From Nanobdellota archaeon (GTDB lineage Archaea > Nanobdellota > Nanobdellia > Woesearchaeales > UBA11576), in NCBI GenBank assembly GCA_018830225.1, contig JAHJSS010000035.1:1-36664 (forward strand): a DNA stretch of 36,664 nucleotides, in the 5' to 3' direction. How positions within the stretch are numbered: position 1 is the first letter of the stretch; each line of letters starts with the position of its first letter. Below, piece by piece: positions 1 through 36,460 of the stretch. The translations under genes and the position numbers were made by a program. The notes below the pieces were generated by a model that worked only from the letters and a program-made list of their open reading frames with translations, was not told the origin of the DNA and did no database searches.

Positions 1-49
1 GCCTTAACAAACGCTTAACCTTTTTAACCAGCTTAACCTCTTTCTCCAT

Positions 50-98
50 GGTGGGGGAACACTCCCCACCCCCAGAACAGCCTAACAGCTGTTCCGGG
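50..98. repeat. Tandem hairpin pair (module 1)
   Basis: Two adjacent hairpins. The first has arms GGTGGGG (50-56) and CCCCACC (64-70). The second has arms GAACAGC (75-81) and GCTGTTC (88-94), extended past one A/C mismatch by CCC/GGG (71-73, 96-98). This is the same two-hairpin architecture found at 31713, 34097 and 36376, with different sequence. It may end an upstream gene outside the window or be a dispersed structured element. Confidence 0.5.
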
Positions 99-153
99 TT
101 ATAATTTTAACCATCAAAAAGGGATTCGGGACATAGCCGCAACCAAGCAAAGC

Positions 154-161
154 TTTATAAA
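154..161 (+). promoter_or_regulatory. TATA box for the small ORF at 197
   Basis: TTTATAAA. An archaeal TATA box here would start transcription near 180-188, about 10-15 nt before the GTG start at 197, giving a near-leaderless transcript. Confidence 0.4.
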
Positions 162-196
162 CGGACGATTTCTCAAGCAGATATTCGCTTTTAGCG

Positions 197-322
197 GTGG
201 ACACGTTGAAAAAAAGAGATTACCTGACAAAACTGTTGTTGTTTGCCATCTTCGGACTGGTATTCGGCAATTTCGTGACAAACGCGATACTTATTCTGAA
301 CACACTGAATTATAATGTTTGA
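197..322 (+). CDS. Possible small membrane peptide (41 aa)
   Basis: Unrecognised short ORF. It opens with GTG at 197 (alternative TTG at 206) and ends with TGA at 320-322. A short basic N-terminus (Lys-Lys-Arg) precedes one long hydrophobic stretch rich in Leu, Phe, Ile and Val that could span the membrane once. A TATA-like box lies about 40 nt upstream, so the transcript could be near-leaderless. No Shine-Dalgarno is visible. The composition fits a one-TM small protein, but chance cannot be excluded at this length; homologues in relatives would be needed to confirm it. Confidence 0.35.
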   Translation: MDTLKKRDYLTKLLLFAIFGLVFGNFVTNAILILNTLNYNV

Positions 323-429
323 GTTTTATTGCAGGTTCTCATTCCCCACTCCCCACGCTTGCCCCCTTCGGGCGCTGGCCCATTGACTCGTTCCACTCGT
401 CACTGGACACTGGACTTGCCCGGATGAGC
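323..429. other. Intergenic stretch with short direct repeats
   Basis: No gene seen. It holds a short hairpin (GCCC at 361-364 with GGGC at 370-373) and two short direct repeats: ACTCGT twice near 385-400, and a CACTGGA doublet near 401-414. It is followed by the Hef promoter. Confidence 0.4.
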
Positions 430-438
430 TATTTAAAG
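430..438 (+). promoter_or_regulatory. TATA box for hef
   Basis: TATTTAAAG. The predicted transcription start is near 456-460, giving a leader of about 40 nt that contains a GAGAGG Shine-Dalgarno (486-491) just before the ATG at 496. Confidence 0.5.
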
Positions 439-495
439 GGTGCATGCGTTAATTCTGAGCATTGACAATAATAATTAATAATAAAGAGAGGACAC

Positions 496-2814
496 ATGAT
501 GATAGAATCAACAACAAGGACTCTCACTGACTGGAGCAATGCAGACTGCAGGCAGAAACCGCGTGTCGAGGTGCCAAGATACAAGATGATGCTCAAGAAC
601 ATCACACCAAGGCTGTACCAGGAGACAATACTGGGCACATGCGTGGACAAGAACTGCCTGGTAGTCCTGCCAACAGGGATGGGAAAGACAGTCATAGCGC
701 TCATGCTCGCATCACAGAGGCTGAAGTGCTTCCCGAACAGCAAAGTACTCTTCCTTGCGCCGACAAGACCTCTCGTGGAGCAGCACCTCCAGACATTCTC
801 AAACCACTTTGACATCGAAGAGGAACAGCTGGCAGTGTTCACAGGATTCGTCAAGCCAGAGAAGAGGGCGCAGCTGTGGAAACAGGCAAAAGTCATATTC
901 AGCACGCCGCAAGGACTCGAGAACGACATCATAACGAACAAGATAGACCTCTCAGAAGTCAGCCTGGTAATATTCGACGAGGCGCACAGGGCAACAGGAG
1001 ACTACGCATACACATTCATAGCGAAACAGTACAACAAGAAAGCACGCTACCCGAGGATGCTCGCGCTGACAGCGAGCCCTGGAAGCGAACTCGAGAAGAT
1101 AAACGATGTGTGCAAGAACCTCTACATCGAAGGCGTCGAGCTAAGGACAGACGCAGACCCTGACGTAAGGCCGTACATACAAGAGACAAAAGTCCAGTGG
1201 GTACAGGTAGAACTGCCCCCAGAGTTAGAGAAGATAAAGCAATACCTGAAAGCATGCTACAACAGCAAGCTGAACGAGATCAAGAAGCACGGCTACGCAG
1301 ACGCGTCCAGGATGCTCAGCAAAGTAGACCTCCTAAAGCTGCAGGGACACCTGCACTCAGAGATAGCGAAGGGGGACAAGTCATTCGAGATAATGAAATC
1401 AGTCTCGCTCATAGCAGAGGCAATGAAGACAGAGCACGCGGTAGAGCTCATAGAGACACAGGGTGTCGCGCCGCTGCACAACTACTTCGAGAGGATATAC
1501 GAAGAGGCGAAGTCATCGAAGGTGAAGGCAGTCCAGAACCTTGCCAGCGACCTCAACTTCAAGTCAGCAGCGATACTTACGAGAAACCTGATGCAGGAGG
1601 GCGTCGAGCACCCCAAGCTGGCGACGCTCAAATCACTCGTCGAGAAAGAGGTCGAGGCCAACAGCAAGGTCAAGATAATCATATTCAACCAGTACAGGGA
1701 GAGCGCAAAGAAGATAGAGGAGACGCTCAACACCATACCAGGCGCAGAGGCAAGGGTCTTTGTCGGGCAGGCAAAGAAGAACGGCACAGGCCTCACGCAG
1801 AAAGAGCAGAAACAGATGCTCGAGGAATTCAAGCAGTGCGAGTTCAACTGCCTTGTGGCCACATCAGTCGCAGAAGAAGGCATAGACATACCCTGCGTCG
1901 ACCTTGTCATATTCTACGAGCCTATACCCTCAGGCATAAGGACGATACAGCGCAGAGGAAGGACAGGCAGGCAGGACAGCGGAAGGGTCATAATCCTCAT
2001 GACCCGCGGAACCAGGGACGAAGGATACAAATGGAGCGCACACCACAAGGAAAAACGCATGTACAGGGAGCTCGACAACCTGAAGACCAAGTTCAAAGGG
2101 TTCGACCGCAGGGCAGAAGAGAAGATCGAGAAGTACATAGCGCCGGAGATGGAGCTGAAAGTCTTTGCTGACTTCAGGGAGAAGGCATCAGGCGTGATAA
2201 AAGAGCTCATCGACATGGGGATATCAGTCAACATGCAGACCCTCAATGTCGGGGATTATCTCCTGTCCACAAGAGTGGGCGTAGAGTACAAGAAAGTCCC
2301 TGACTTCGTGGACTCTATCATCGACGGAAGGCTGCTCGACCAGATAAAGAGCCTCAAGCAGAACTTCGAAAGGCCCATGATAATCATCGAAGGCCAGGAA
2401 GACATCTACGCGATGAGGAAGATAGCAGCAAACGCTATACGCGGCATGCTCGCGACAATAATGGTCAGCTACGGAATACCGGTCATACAGACAAAGACAG
2501 TGAAAGAGACAGCGTCATTGATGGCGGTGATCGCTAAGAGGGAGCAGGATCCTGACTTCAGGGAATTCAACCCGCACGGAAGCAGGAAACCGATGACGAC
2601 GAAAGAGCTGCAGGAATACATAGTCTCAGCGCTGCCGGGAATAGGACCGACACTGGCAAAGCCATTGCTGGAGAGGTTCGGCAGCGTCAAGAACCTCGTC
2701 AATGCATCTGAGGAAGAGCTCAAGGAGATAGAGAAGATAGGAGAGAAAAGGGCAAAAGAGATACAGAGGCTGCTGACCGAGAGATACGAGAATGAAAACA
2801 ACAGCAGGCATTAA
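496..2814 (+). CDS. hef: Hef-type helicase/nuclease (XPF/FANCM family)
   Basis: Fork- and junction-processing repair enzyme combining an SF2 helicase with an XPF-like nuclease. Visible in order: Walker A PTGMGKT (K64), Walker B DEAH (161-164), TAS motif III, the QRRGRTGR motif VI, then an ERCC4 nuclease domain (about 555-700) and a C-terminal tandem helix-hairpin-helix (about 712-762, PGIG). At 772 aa it is full length for euryarchaeal Hef. The nuclease signature is altered: the usual ERKxxxD reads E597-Y-K599-x3-D603, so Tyr replaces Arg, while D587 of the upstream GD is kept. Start chosen at the first of two ATGs after GAGAGG; the second, at 499, is equally possible. It is transcribed alone and converges on htpX with a 4-nt overlap. 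Confidence 0.95.
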   Translation: MMIESTTRTLTDWSNADCRQKPRVEVPRYKMMLKNITPRLYQETILGTCVDKNCLVVLPTGMGKTVIALMLASQRLKCFPNSKVLFLAPTRPLVEQHLQTFSNHFDIEEEQLAVFTGFVKPEKRAQLWKQAKVIFSTPQGLENDIITNKIDLSEVSLVIFDEAHRATGDYAYTFIAKQYNKKARYPRMLALTASPGSELEKINDVCKNLYIEGVELRTDADPDVRPYIQETKVQWVQVELPPELEKIKQYLKACYNSKLNEIKKHGYADASRMLSKVDLLKLQGHLHSEIAKGDKSFEIMKSVSLIAEAMKTEHAVELIETQGVAPLHNYFERIYEEAKSSKVKAVQNLASDLNFKSAAILTRNLMQEGVEHPKLATLKSLVEKEVEANSKVKIIIFNQYRESAKKIEETLNTIPGAEARVFVGQAKKNGTGLTQKEQKQMLEEFKQCEFNCLVATSVAEEGIDIPCVDLVIFYEPIPSGIRTIQRRGRTGRQDSGRVIILMTRGTRDEGYKWSAHHKEKRMYRELDNLKTKFKGFDRRAEEKIEKYIAPEMELKVFADFREKASGVIKELIDMGISVNMQTLNVGDYLLSTRVGVEYKKVPDFVDSIIDGRLLDQIKSLKQNFERPMIIIEGQEDIYAMRKIAANAIRGMLATIMVSYGIPVIQTKTVKETASLMAVIAKREQDPDFREFNPHGSRKPMTTKELQEYIVSALPGIGPTLAKPLLERFGSVKNLVNASEEELKEIEKIGEKRAKEIQRLLTERYENENNSRH

Positions 2815-3671
2815 GCCTGCATCTTCCTCAGTCTCCTGATGCGCTCGTCCATGGGCGGATGGGTGCTGAAAAGAGAAGTCAACCCCTTTGCAGAGAAAGG
2901 GTTTGCGATGAACAACGAGGATGTGGTAGGGTTTCCGAACCTCAGCGGATTCTTGTGGATGCCATGCTCCAACTTCTCAAGCGCACTGGCAAGAGCCAGA
3001 GGATTGTGGATCGTCTTCGCGCCTGTCTCGTCAGCCAGGTATTCTCGTGAGCGCGAGATCGCAAGCTGGATTATCAACGCAATGATGGGAGCGAGTATGG
3101 CAAGCGCGAGCCAGCCGAGTATGCCGCCTCCGTTATTGTTCCTGTCGCCGCCGAAACCGCCGAAGATAGCAGCCCATCTCGCCATCATCGCGACGTAGGA
3201 GATGACTCCTGCAATCGTCGCAGCGATGGTCTGTATGAGGATATCACGGTTCTTTATGTGCGCAACCTCGTGGGCGATGACGCCCTTGAGCTCATCCTTG
3301 CTGAGCAGGCGCATGATGCCCTCTGTGCAGGCGACAACAGCATTTTTTGGGTTCCTGCCTGTCGCGAAAGCGTTTGGGCTGTCGCTGGGGATGATATACA
3401 CCTTGGGCATGGGAATGTTTGCAAGCTTTGCCACCTCACGCACTGTCTTGAAAAGATCCGGATGCTGTGACTCCTTCGCCTCCTTGGCCTTGTACATGAA
3501 AAGCACGAGCTTGTGAGAGAAGAAATAGCTCAGCCCGTTCATCAACAGGACTATTACGAAAGCTATAGTCAGGCCCTGCATTCCTCCGACAAGCTGGCCC
3601 ACAAGAAGCAGCACGACTGTCAATGCAAGCAGAAGCACAAAAGTCTTGAACTGGTTGGTAGCAGCAGACAT
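2811..3671 (-). CDS. htpX: Membrane zinc metalloprotease HtpX (M48)
   Basis: Integral membrane protease of the M48 family that degrades damaged membrane proteins. The zinc site HEVAHIKNRD supplies two His ligands and the catalytic Glu, and the third ligand lies in REYLADETGA. Two hydrophobic segments near the N-terminus and two after the active-site helix fit HtpX topology. A Gly/Asn-rich loop (GGFGGDRNNNGGG) sits between the latter. The start is the ATG at 3671 (286 aa) because a strong Shine-Dalgarno (AGGGGGATGA) lies immediately upstream. An in-frame ATG at 3749 would add 26 residues that overlap the promoter. Its 3' end overlaps the hef stop region by 4 nt, convergently. Confidence 0.95.
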   Translation of the reverse strand: MSAATNQFKTFVLLLALTVVLLLVGQLVGGMQGLTIAFVIVLLMNGLSYFFSHKLVLFMYKAKEAKESQHPDLFKTVREVAKLANIPMPKVYIIPSDSPNAFATGRNPKNAVVACTEGIMRLLSKDELKGVIAHEVAHIKNRDILIQTIAATIAGVISYVAMMARWAAIFGGFGGDRNNNGGGILGWLALAILAPIIALIIQLAISRSREYLADETGAKTIHNPLALASALEKLEHGIHKNPLRFGNPTTSSLFIANPFSAKGLTSLFSTHPPMDERIRRLRKMQA

Positions 3672-3712
3672 GGTATCATCCCCCTGATGTGTAATGTGTG
3701 TTGTATCGGGGT

Positions 3713-3721
3713 GTTTATAAG
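3713..3721 (-). promoter_or_regulatory. TATA box for htpX
   Basis: On the minus strand this reads CTTATAAAC. Transcription would begin near 3690, leaving a leader of about 20 nt occupied by the purine-rich Shine-Dalgarno. This supports the ATG at 3671. Confidence 0.5.
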
Positions 3722-3814
3722 CTTTATGAATCCGTTTATACCATCCCAATCAGATCAATAAATAATCAACGCCTGCGGCGAAGAAAGATACGTGAGCGGT
3801 CTTAGCTCCTGGGT

Positions 3815-4207
3815 TCATGGTCTTTCTGCTGCCAAGTTCCTGAAATAAGTATCAATGCCCTCTATATGGCTCAGGTCAGAGTTCCTGAACAGGAACTCGC
3901 GGAAGAAACTGTCCACCTTGACGCCGTTCCTGGTAAGGTTGGTCTTTAGGGATGCGTAGAGCTTCTTGCCCTCCTTGTCAAGGTCTGTGAGGATGATCGC
4001 CTCTTTATGCTCTTTTGCTAGCTCCTCTGCGACAGCGAAGGCAGCCTTGTTGAGACGACGGATACGGTCACGCGGAATGCCCAGCCTGACTAATGCATTA
4101 ACGTCCTTGATGCCCTCAACTATGATAATCTTATCAGAGGCCTTCAGCTTCTCAAGCCAGCCGAGCATGGCGTCCCGGTCATTCTTATCAAGCATCTTTT
4201 TATCCAT
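3815..4207 (-). CDS. Small Toprim-domain protein (UPF0292/COG1658-like)
   Basis: A stand-alone Toprim domain of 130 aa. The conserved Glu lies in IIVEGIKDV and the Asp-x-Asp pair in ILTDLDKEG, the Mg-binding acidic residues of Toprim nucleotidyl-transfer or hydrolysis enzymes. The archaeal small Toprim family is related to RNase M5 and DnaG-type cores, but its substrate is not established, so I give no gene symbol. Start taken at ATG 4207; a TTG at 4231 would add eight residues. It is divergent from the primase gene, with a 265-nt spacer holding an 11-bp inverted repeat. Confidence 0.8.
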   Translation of the reverse strand: MDKKMLDKNDRDAMLGWLEKLKASDKIIIVEGIKDVNALVRLGIPRDRIRRLNKAAFAVAEELAKEHKEAIILTDLDKEGKKLYASLKTNLTRNGVKVDSFFREFLFRNSDLSHIEGIDTYFRNLAAERP

Positions 4208-31680: not shown

Positions 31681-31712
31681 CTTCCTGTTGTCTCTGTTAT
31701 TTTTACTATGCT

Positions 31713-31764
31713 CAAACGGCTTTGCCGTTTGGCATCCTAAAAATCCGTCTGCGACGAATTTTTA
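31713..31764. repeat. Tandem hairpin pair (module 2), in the GbsR operon leader
   Basis: Hairpin 1 has perfect 8-bp arms CAAACGGC (31713-31720) and GCCGTTTG (31724-31731). A 6-nt spacer separates it from hairpin 2, with arms TAAAAAT-x-CGTC (31738-31749) and GACG-x-ATTTTTA (31753-31764), one mismatch. It lies between a minus-strand TATA box (31792-31801) and the regulator start, so it is probably in the 5' leader. Confidence 0.6.
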
Positions 31765-31791
31765 TGATTTATTAAATTTTATCAATTCTGC

Positions 31792-34017: not shown

Positions 34018-34093
34018 ATTGCAGATGGTGCAATACCTCTTTTTTTAAGGTGAGGATGTAGCGCCTTTAGTCGCGGATTGCGCCATCTGCAAT
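34018..34093. repeat. 17-bp inverted repeat flanking a 42-nt loop
   Basis: ATTGCAGATGGTGCAAT (34018-34034) is complementary to ATTGCGCCATCTGCAAT (34077-34093), with one G-T pair if transcribed. Each arm is itself partly palindromic (ATTGCA/TGCAAT). No ORF inside. The hairpin pair at 34097 follows four bases later. Confidence 0.6.
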
Positions 34094-34096
34094 GCT

Positions 34097-34142
34097 CAAA
34101 ATCGCTTTGCGATTTTGGCACACCAAAATGCTTCGCATTTTG
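34097..34142. repeat. Tandem hairpin pair (module 3)
   Basis: Hairpin 1 has perfect 9-bp arms CAAAATCGC (34097-34105) and GCGATTTTG (34109-34117) with a TTT loop. After a 6-nt spacer, hairpin 2 has perfect 8-bp arms CAAAATGC (34124-34131) and GCATTTTG (34135-34142) with a TTC loop. ACAC just before and GTGT just after hairpin 2 extend its stem past a bulge. Confidence 0.65.
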
Positions 34143-34149
34143 CGTGTCC

Positions 34150-34211
34150 CGCAGACTCGCCTGTCAAAAGCGAGTCCCGTAAATGTTGTAGGGACGAGCG
34201 GCGAGTCTGCG
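34150..34211. repeat. 12-bp inverted repeat after the 34212 gene
   Basis: CGCAGACTCGCC (34150-34161) pairs with GGCGAGTCTGCG (34200-34211), which abuts the stop of the minus-strand gene. Inside, GTCCC and GGGAC form a second stem. It could act as a transcription-termination structure, but its length and nesting exceed a simple terminator. Confidence 0.6.
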
Positions 34212-35402
34212 TTATTCTTTCTTTTTCCTGTAAATCGCGAGGAATATGTTGACAGCAGTCAGTATCACCACCACAATCACGAGAATGATTGTGAGGGCGG
34301 TTGTGCTGATCCCTGATTTCTGCGGCGCTTCCTGCTCAGCAGCAGACGGCACGGCCTCTGCCACTGCGCCAGGCTGAGGAGCAACCATCCTGATCTTGCC
34401 TTCAAAGACACTGCTCTTCTCAGCATAGAAAACATTGATTTTTACGCTGTACTCCTTCTCCTCAAGCTTTGAGGTATCTACGAACGCCTCCAGGTCAAGG
34501 GTCTTCCAAGGCTGAAGCTTGTTAGTGGATGTCTTGGCAGTCACAGAAGAGTTGCTGTCAAATATCACTATTTCAGCATAAGCATCAAGAGGGTCATTCC
34601 ATACGCTCTCAACCTTGGTGACAAACCGCTTTATGCCGCCGGTCTCGAGCTCCTTGGTGTAATCGACAATCTTCACATCAAGGGTGCCAATCCTGAAGCT
34701 CGCATTCGCGTCCTTTATCGTGCCGTCGCAGTCGATGTCGGCTGTGGCAGTGTAGTTGCCAGGCAGGAGACCTGCAGTGTTGAACAGCGCATCCAGCTGC
34801 ACTGTCTCGGCAGACTTGACAGGCCTGCTTATGACCTGTGCGACACCTGCCTTTGTGCGTTGGAGGTCAAACACATCAATCGTGCCTGCGCAAGATGCTA
34901 TATCATCCTTCCCGAGGTTGTTCACAGAAACCTTGAAGCTGACAGCCTGGTCCCTATTGACATTCGGGGCGGAAAGAGAGACCACAGGGTTTATCCCTGG
35001 GTAGAGGACCATGAAGTTCAGGCCTGCGCAGGCGCTCGCCCTGCCGCACACAGTGCCTTTCACAGTGCATCCCTCCTCGACGCAGATATATGTCAGATGC
35101 CAGCCAGGAGGGTCAATCTCTGAAGGGAATATTATCCTGCCATAGAAAGGTATCCTGCTGCCAGGAGAGACATTCTCAAAACTAGTCCTGTCAAGCACAA
35201 CATACTTGGCGAGGCCACCTGTGGCAGAGACAGTATAATCATTGATGACATAGCCAGCGACAAGCTCATAATTGAACTCATAGACCGAGCCAGGCACAAA
35301 GAGCTCGCGCCTGTTGGTATCAAGGCCTGCGATGCCGACAGCGCCTGCACTGTATGCGCATATCATCAAAAGAACAATCAATAAGGGGAATAAATTTTTC
35401 AT
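34212..35402 (-). CDS. Secreted tail-anchored CARDB-like protein
   Basis: Envelope protein with a signal peptide (about 1-24, ending YSAGAVG), beta-rich domains of the CARDB/COG1361 type (NPVVSLSAPNVNRDQAVSFK, then NLGKDDIASCAGTIDVFDLQ), and paired Cys (CVEEGCTVKGTVCGRASAC, about 107-127) that suggest disulfides outside the cell. One C-terminal TM (about 372-392) with a KKKE tail anchors it. 396 aa. The layout matches the CARDB-like protein of the ABC operon, but no transporter genes adjoin it. The start lies in T-rich DNA without a Shine-Dalgarno, 34 nt after the preceding gene. Confidence 0.75.
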   Translation of the reverse strand: MKNLFPLLIVLLMICAYSAGAVGIAGLDTNRRELFVPGSVYEFNYELVAGYVINDYTVSATGGLAKYVVLDRTSFENVSPGSRIPFYGRIIFPSEIDPPGWHLTYICVEEGCTVKGTVCGRASACAGLNFMVLYPGINPVVSLSAPNVNRDQAVSFKVSVNNLGKDDIASCAGTIDVFDLQRTKAGVAQVISRPVKSAETVQLDALFNTAGLLPGNYTATADIDCDGTIKDANASFRIGTLDVKIVDYTKELETGGIKRFVTKVESVWNDPLDAYAEIVIFDSNSSVTAKTSTNKLQPWKTLDLEAFVDTSKLEEKEYSVKINVFYAEKSSVFEGKIRMVAPQPGAVAEAVPSAAEQEAPQKSGISTTALTIILVIVVVILTAVNIFLAIYRKKKE

Positions 35403-36368: not shown

Positions 36369-36375
36369 GAAACTT

Positions 36376-36428
36376 CAAAATCCCTTACAGGATTTTGTGT
36401 GGTCAAAAACTGTTAAAGCAGTTTTTGA
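36376..36428. repeat. Tandem hairpin pair (module 4), in the 36350 gene leader
   Basis: Hairpin 1 has perfect 8-bp arms CAAAATCC (36376-36383) and GGATTTTG (36390-36397) with a 6-nt loop. Hairpin 2 has perfect 10-bp arms TCAAAAACTG (36403-36412) and CAGTTTTTGA (36419-36428), and TGTG before and CACA after lengthen the stem past a bulge. A smaller hairpin CCCTT/AAGGG follows at 36436-36449. All lie between the TATA box and the ribosome-binding site. Confidence 0.65.
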
Positions 36429-36460
36429 CACATTACCCTTTGAGAAGGGCTGGTTTCTGC

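Follow-up and report, generated by a model that had tools for sequence, protein, structure and literature searches.

The hairpin pairs described here are probably copies (we put the probability at roughly two in three) of a non-coding, non-autonomous mobile DNA element that resembles REPINs: an inverted dimer of bulged hairpins closed by 3-bp feet, gained and lost as a unit of 50-60 bp, and moved by a putative trans-acting enzyme other than Y1/RAYT. Four kinds of observation underlie this reading, namely a fixed grammar, feet and arms that stay paired through double changes, a patchy distribution at high copy number across DPANN archaea, and sites found both filled and empty. The window, meaning the whole stretch of DNA that was analysed, is the whole of contig C30 (36,664 bp) of the archaeal genome G000 (1.32 Mb, 81 contigs), which was compared with its nearest relatives of the same genus, the sister genome G001 and the genomes G002 and G003 (G003 being more distant than G001).

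The element is gene-free, 50-60 letters long, and reads NNN-T-CAAA[arm]loop[arm']TTTG-N'N'N', followed directly by MMM-CAAA[arm]loop[arm']TTTG-A-M'M'M'. As an inverted dimer it has the same reading on either strand, with 3-bp feet, a bulged T on the left and a bulged A on the right. An earlier note on this DNA had placed hairpin pairs at four sites in the window and read them as four copies of a common design. All four pairs are present, with DNA-fold z-scores of -6.5 (31708-31768), -6.2 (34092-34147), -6.3 (36371-36433) and -3.9 (45-100). Searching simply for perfect stems of 7 bp or longer recovered 50-94, 34097-34142, 36376-36429 and hairpin 1 at 31713-31731; hairpin 2 of the pair at 31713-31764 has a single internal mismatch. 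The common design holds for the last three places (copies 1 to 3, Table 1), where the 6-nt spacer and the stem extended by 3-4 bp beyond a one-base bulge are as described, the spacer being the two foot strands that meet there, the 3' one from hairpin 1 and the 5' one from hairpin 2 (GCA+CAC, GTG+TGC, GCA+CGC). A covariance model of the family gave exactly three matches in the window, which are these three copies. The place at 50-98 is G+C-rich, lacks the CAAA/TTTG frame and the feet, was unmatched by the model in the window search and could be assigned to no family, so that the four copies become three. This place lies inside a replaced stretch (window 1-127) that has no alignable counterpart in G001; positions 128-4168 align at 85%. 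Scans of the whole window gave no Rfam match at the gathering score and no tRNA.

Table 1. Hairpin features of the window, with coordinates and the basis for each call
Feature	Position	Strand	Basis
Two adjacent G+C-rich hairpins, non-member	50..94	.	Perfect-stem scan; no model match; other frame and feet
Copy 1	31708..31768 (insert about 31708-31766)	.	Model matches both strands, 42.1 and 31.8 bits, E 3e-9
Larger composite repeat rich in hairpins (core CGCAGACTCGC..GCGAGTCTGCG and others), copy 2 nested inside	34018..34215	.	Block absent in G001
Copy 2, canonical form	34092..34147	.	Model 78.6 bits, E 1e-18
Copy 3	36371..36433 (59 bp, about 36374-36432, missing in G001)	.	Model 22.6 bits, E 4e-4

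Copy 1 is composed of ATGC-T-CAAACGGC/ttt/GCCGTTTG-GCAT and TAAAAATcCGTC/tgc/GACGaATTTTTA, its second hairpin belonging to a subfamily with TAAAAA arms and having related copies elsewhere in G000. Copy 2 reads TGC-T-CAAAATCGC/ttt/GCGATTTTG-GCA, then CAC-CAAAATGC/ttc/GCATTTTG-C-GTG, and the composite repeat around it has further copies on contigs C71, C54, C52, C4, C9, C62 and C15. Hairpin-in-hairpin repeats with the CGCAGACTCGC..GCGAGTCTGCG core were seen at the window block and at L028, L031, L034, L044, L046, L072, L087 and L091, with extra hairpins nested between 7-bp GACTCGC direct repeats. Copies at L032:7921-7977, L108:2642-2694, L035:204-257 and L150:5486-5536 form a second subfamily, in which the arms carry TCAGAAA and the bulge is apparently on the junction side.

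The excess of tandem hairpin pairs over chance is decisive. In 335 kb of G000, a sample mostly picked around earlier matches, pairs with stems of 7 bp or more numbered 54, where local dinucleotide shuffles gave 0.2, and those with stems of 8 bp or more numbered 33, where shuffles gave 0; a 647-kb sample, about half of it picked irrespective of matches, held 68 pairs versus 1.0. The comparison with dinucleotide shuffles proposed in the earlier note returned a large excess and not equality. In the larger sample, intergenic DNA held 47.6 pairs per 100 kb and coding DNA, which was crudely called, 5.9. The sister genome had 18 pairs versus 1.7 shuffled, and 16 genomes outside the genus, pooled, had 6 versus 1.7.

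The covariance-model search across the genome and its relatives, also proposed earlier, yielded many more copies with covarying stems: G000, G001, G002 and G003 gave 84, 20, 53 and 54 matches, respectively (most places being matched on both strands), and the 647-kb sample, about half of G000, contained 46 or more separate places. Across the phylum, 107 of 236 genomes had matches at E <=0.001, in a search that scored at most 24 candidates per genome and used covariance-model E-values that are rough. In the Aenigmatarchaeota (the phylum of G254) matches were found in 8 of 57 genomes, with 34-78 in three of them and top counts of 60-78. Those matches from other genera that were printed follow the grammar, feet and bulges included, and in control DNA (E. 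coli, 200 kb; phage G, 100 kb) the best E-value was 0.23. An exact pattern (CTCAAA, TTTGG-YRYR-CCAAA and TTTGAG fixed, 8-17 free bases per arm, complementarity not used for selection) was scanned against 84,980 genomes of bacteria and archaea and found 19 stretches against a chance expectation of about 0.2 (uniform-base estimate), all of them DPANN, in records labelled Woesearchaeota, Nanoarchaeota, Aenigmatarchaeota, DPANN group, or simply archaeon; it had 0 matches in IMG/VR viral contigs. Near-identical copies form species-specific sets, and there are genus-specific sets as well. Such a patchy distribution at high copy number is expected of a mobile element.

Nearly all of these genomes are MAGs, and contig ends hold several of the copies, as might be expected if the family were a product of chance or assembly. 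The probability of such an artefact is practically negligible, as the same grammar recurs in several DPANN phyla, in genomes assembled independently of one another, and in the single-contig genomes G019 and G104, and the shuffle excess, the DPANN-only matches to the exact pattern and the covariation described below refute it. Assembly breaks were seen to coincide with these repeats at the ends of contigs C4, C7, C14, C19, C41, C43, C52 and C54, so copy numbers in MAGs are probably underestimates.

The proposal that structure is kept while the letters of the arms differ is strongly supported by arm pairing and double changes. In 25 distinct pattern hits (from the 84,980-genome scan and the genus genomes), 180 of 192 free arm positions were Watson-Crick, versus 36% with arms re-dealt, as were 98 of the 104 outer foot positions that the pattern does not fix. 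An alignment of 11 equal-length elements (A1) had 98.8% of its cells paired, with changes on both sides in 13 of 23 pairs and one-sided changes in none; its covariation of 0.49 (0.15 shuffled) was reached by 0 of 500 shuffles. In a model-aligned set of 80 distinct elements, where part of the pairing is expected from the model itself, 96.6% of pairs were Watson-Crick, 1.1% G-T, 1.3% A-C and 1.1% other. Because G-T is no commoner than A-C, it is as DNA that the stems are kept paired. The missing wobble is informative: G-U is tolerated in an RNA fold and would show, depending on the strand, as an excess of G-T or of A-C.

The same figures bear on a structured RNA, a regulator or processing signal in untranslated regions that is selected as RNA, which was among the candidates first suggested. 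A conserved fold with compensatory changes would suit it, as would the position of copy 3, which directly precedes a likely ribosome-binding site and its ATG, read on the minus strand, and which has hairpin orthologues in G003. It is nevertheless improbable, since G-U pairs make up 1.1% and are no commoner than A-C, positions relative to genes are mixed, the sister species is without the element at orthologous loci, and no Rfam family matches; the regulator idea found no support, and near absence of wobble and gain or loss between sister species disfavour it.

Turnover of the stems is also seen in G003. Hairpin 2 of its copy 3 orthologue carries three compensatory double changes (TCAAAAACTG/CAGTTTTTGA vs TCAGGAATTG/CAATTCCTGA), and about ten near-identical double hairpins sit inside a longer mosaic with a third hairpin, CCCCGTAGGGG, and closing stems. 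One closing stem, xxxGAC/GTCxxx, has CGT, CAG, CAT, CTT, CCC, CTC or ATC as xxx and is complementary in 8 of 8 full copies. These mosaics show that stem letters turn over faster than pairing. The mosaics around the double hairpin at L079, L080, L082-L086 and L200 of this genome are about 200 bp long, and their outer stems differ per copy and stay complementary.

A link to envelope genes had been suggested from the window; copies are scattered over many contigs, so the envelope neighbourhood is incidental. Three of the 46 places in G000 lie in called ORFs and 14 at contig ends, and the remainder lie between divergent (14), tandem (13) or convergent (2) genes. Counted as distinct loci (n=23) these become 9, 12 and 2, respectively, compared with 72, 154 and 33 among 259 background gaps (all longer intergenic gaps, with genes crudely called), and the divergent excess counted by locus is not significant. 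Intrinsic transcription terminators, another of the first candidates, would agree with left arms that are A-rich and right arms that are T-rich, and would need gene ends. The locations do not fit, with 9/23 distinct internal loci divergent and 2/23 convergent (background 72/259 and 33/259), and the conserved bulges, feet and paired design are foreign to terminators, which makes this reading very improbable.

Comparison of filled and empty sites, together with loop nesting and the patchy high copy number, indicates mobility, and of the candidates first suggested the mobile palindromic element is the one that empty sites and copy number favour. The G001 sequence reads ...CCTTTTGAAAC / TTACCCTTTGAG... 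at the site of copy 3 (36374-36432, 59 bp) and ...GTTATTTTTAC / (A)ATTTATTAAA... at that of copy 1 (31708-31766), and a 49-bp double hairpin at L034:15465-15515 is exactly missing from this genome. An element-free composite repeat at L034 reads CTGCAAT / CCCGCAGACTCGC, where the window version reads CTGCAAT-element-CCCGCAGACTCGC; the surroundings of copy 2 without the element are found in this in-genome paralogue and also at L031 and at L087 of G001. Arrays grow stepwise by entire hairpins (where the window reads CCCTACAACA / TTTACGGG, L091 has one hairpin and L046 has five), the L032 array differs from its paralogue, and several insertions lie inside the loops of other hairpins (L074 vs the L034 hairpin apex). 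The direction of change, loss or gain, was polarised at a single site, that of copy 3: G003 carries it at the orthologous place, so the G001 difference is a loss, and precise removal also occurs.

Insertions occupy intergenic DNA, other repeats made of hairpins, and the loops of hairpins. No target-site duplication or fixed target sequence was recognisable at the filled and empty sites of the double hairpin, whose ends are ambiguous by 0-2 bp; longer direct repeats occur at other element types only. One hairpin-rich insertion (L090:16111-16176 vs L152) is flanked by a 15-bp direct repeat, ATGCCCCCGTAGCAT, an event unlike the double-hairpin insertions.

Several observations speak against the mobile element: no transposase was found, the one polarised difference is a loss and not a gain, neither a fixed target nor a duplication was seen, and stems differ even among copies of one genome, a difference that plain copying does not predict. 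For arms that differ yet match, the best explanation is either template switching at hairpins (PMC8794818) or selection for folding. Taken further, replication template switching (snap-back copying) could itself create, multiply and perfect hairpins in place, with no dedicated mobility, making the copies mutational products and not transposons. Template switching makes and maintains perfect stems (PMC8794818), and perfect complementarity with hardly any single-step intermediates, hairpins nested in hairpin loops, arrays growing by hairpin units and the lack of any transposase found all agree with this. We consider it unlikely as the whole account, as it leaves unexplained the species-specific sets of near-identical copies and also the frame (CAAA/TTTG), bulges (T/A), junction (GGYRYRCC) and comparable lengths that are common to loci with no relation to one another and to different DPANN phyla.

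If the copies are mobile elements, as we prefer, each may fold when its DNA is single-stranded, as on the lagging strand, and a nuclease or transposase acting in trans, non-Y1/RAYT, might recognise the shape formed by the bulged T/A and the foot. The arms would then stay complementary either because folding is needed for movement or because replication template switching copies one arm onto the other. Action of a trans-acting enzyme on a folded single strand is established for IS200/IS605 ends and has been put forward for REPINs (PMC3116915, PMC6006769). The broader picture, of selfish hairpins throughout the DPANN that spread as folded single-stranded DNA, are recognised through shape alone by a putative non-Y1 archaeal enzyme and have their arms rewritten by template switching, such that structure is inherited and sequence is not, is more tentative, and we hold it less likely than not. 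Since contig ends and larger mosaic repeats harbour some of the copies, the moving unit could also exceed the double hairpin.

A Y1 transposase (PF01797) was found in none of 8 genomes (G000 and seven relatives, 66-96% complete), with control genomes positive. The TnpB domain (PF07282) was present as a single copy, in G000 only. Tyrosine recombinases (PF00589) were absent in G001 and G002, both carriers of the element (G002 being 66% complete), and an integron attC-like site was rejected on this ground.

The element resembles the RAYT-associated REPINs, REP dimers and BIMEs of bacteria (PMC3116915, PMC3733652) in being short, non-coding, extragenic and present in many copies with species-specific sets, and in its inverted pairs of bulged hairpins, compensatory changes and insertion in other palindromes. 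As an extragenic, inverted pair of imperfect palindromes in many copies, it agrees with REPs and REPINs. It differs in being archaeal, in feet that are base-paired and covarying, and in arms that are far more variable. No GTAG tag was found in the alignment, where the foot is TGC, CAC or CGC paired with its complement, and the unpaired CGTC tag is likewise missing, CGTC occurring in some copies only and with opposite polarity (PMC3733652). GTAG REPs often show GT pairs, whereas the DPANN element has almost none; CGTC REPs are likewise without a dedicated transposase, and their tag polarity relative to the hairpin is opposite. Since the tag and the transposase that define REPINs were both looked for and not found, we do not file the element as a REPIN. 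The kind as such is familiar, since REP dimers inside palindromes and a class of REPs (CGTC) for which no transposase is known have been described before (PMC3733652); what is new here is the DPANN distribution, the paired feet, the extreme turnover of the arms and the missing wobble.

Other systems share parts of the design. Allomyces-type double-hairpin elements of fungal mitochondria (related hairpin elements, PMC2800124) also consist of two adjacent hairpins as one short unit whose presence or absence as a whole differs between close relatives, which is likewise seen in the DPANN element; they are organellar, have no known shared sequence frame, and are compared here by design. MITEs are similarly small, non-coding, dispersed and intergenic, whereas the DPANN unit lacks the usual terminal inverted repeats and shows no target-site duplication. 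IS608 has an extrahelical base near the foot of the hairpin stem, is recognised as single-stranded DNA and inserts with no target duplication. The ends of IS200/IS605 elements of this type are comparable in having hairpins with an extrahelical base by the foot and insertion without target duplication; the DPANN element differs in being geneless, with no tnpA found and no tetranucleotide target seen. No description of DPANN hairpin repeats was found in a literature search that left many subscription journals outside its reach, and RepRanger treats REPs in archaea generally with DPANN not mentioned.

DPANN archaea are usually regarded as streamlined. On the mobile-element reading, numerous genomes in one phylum, and some in a second, would carry up to dozens of structured mobile elements, which ordinary similarity searches would miss as it is mainly the fold that is conserved. 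The family offers a test case for how REP-like elements move without a known transposase (as with CGTC REPs), and for whether it is selection or template switching that produces compensatory changes in DNA hairpins.

A tRNA gene with three apparent introns (in the D-loop, anticodon loop and T-loop), which ARAGORN does not detect, was noted at L035:3637-3870 (contig C17 of G000), L161:150-385 and L074:2602-2710. Its T-loop insert contains a double-hairpin element, and the G001 orthologue is without it.
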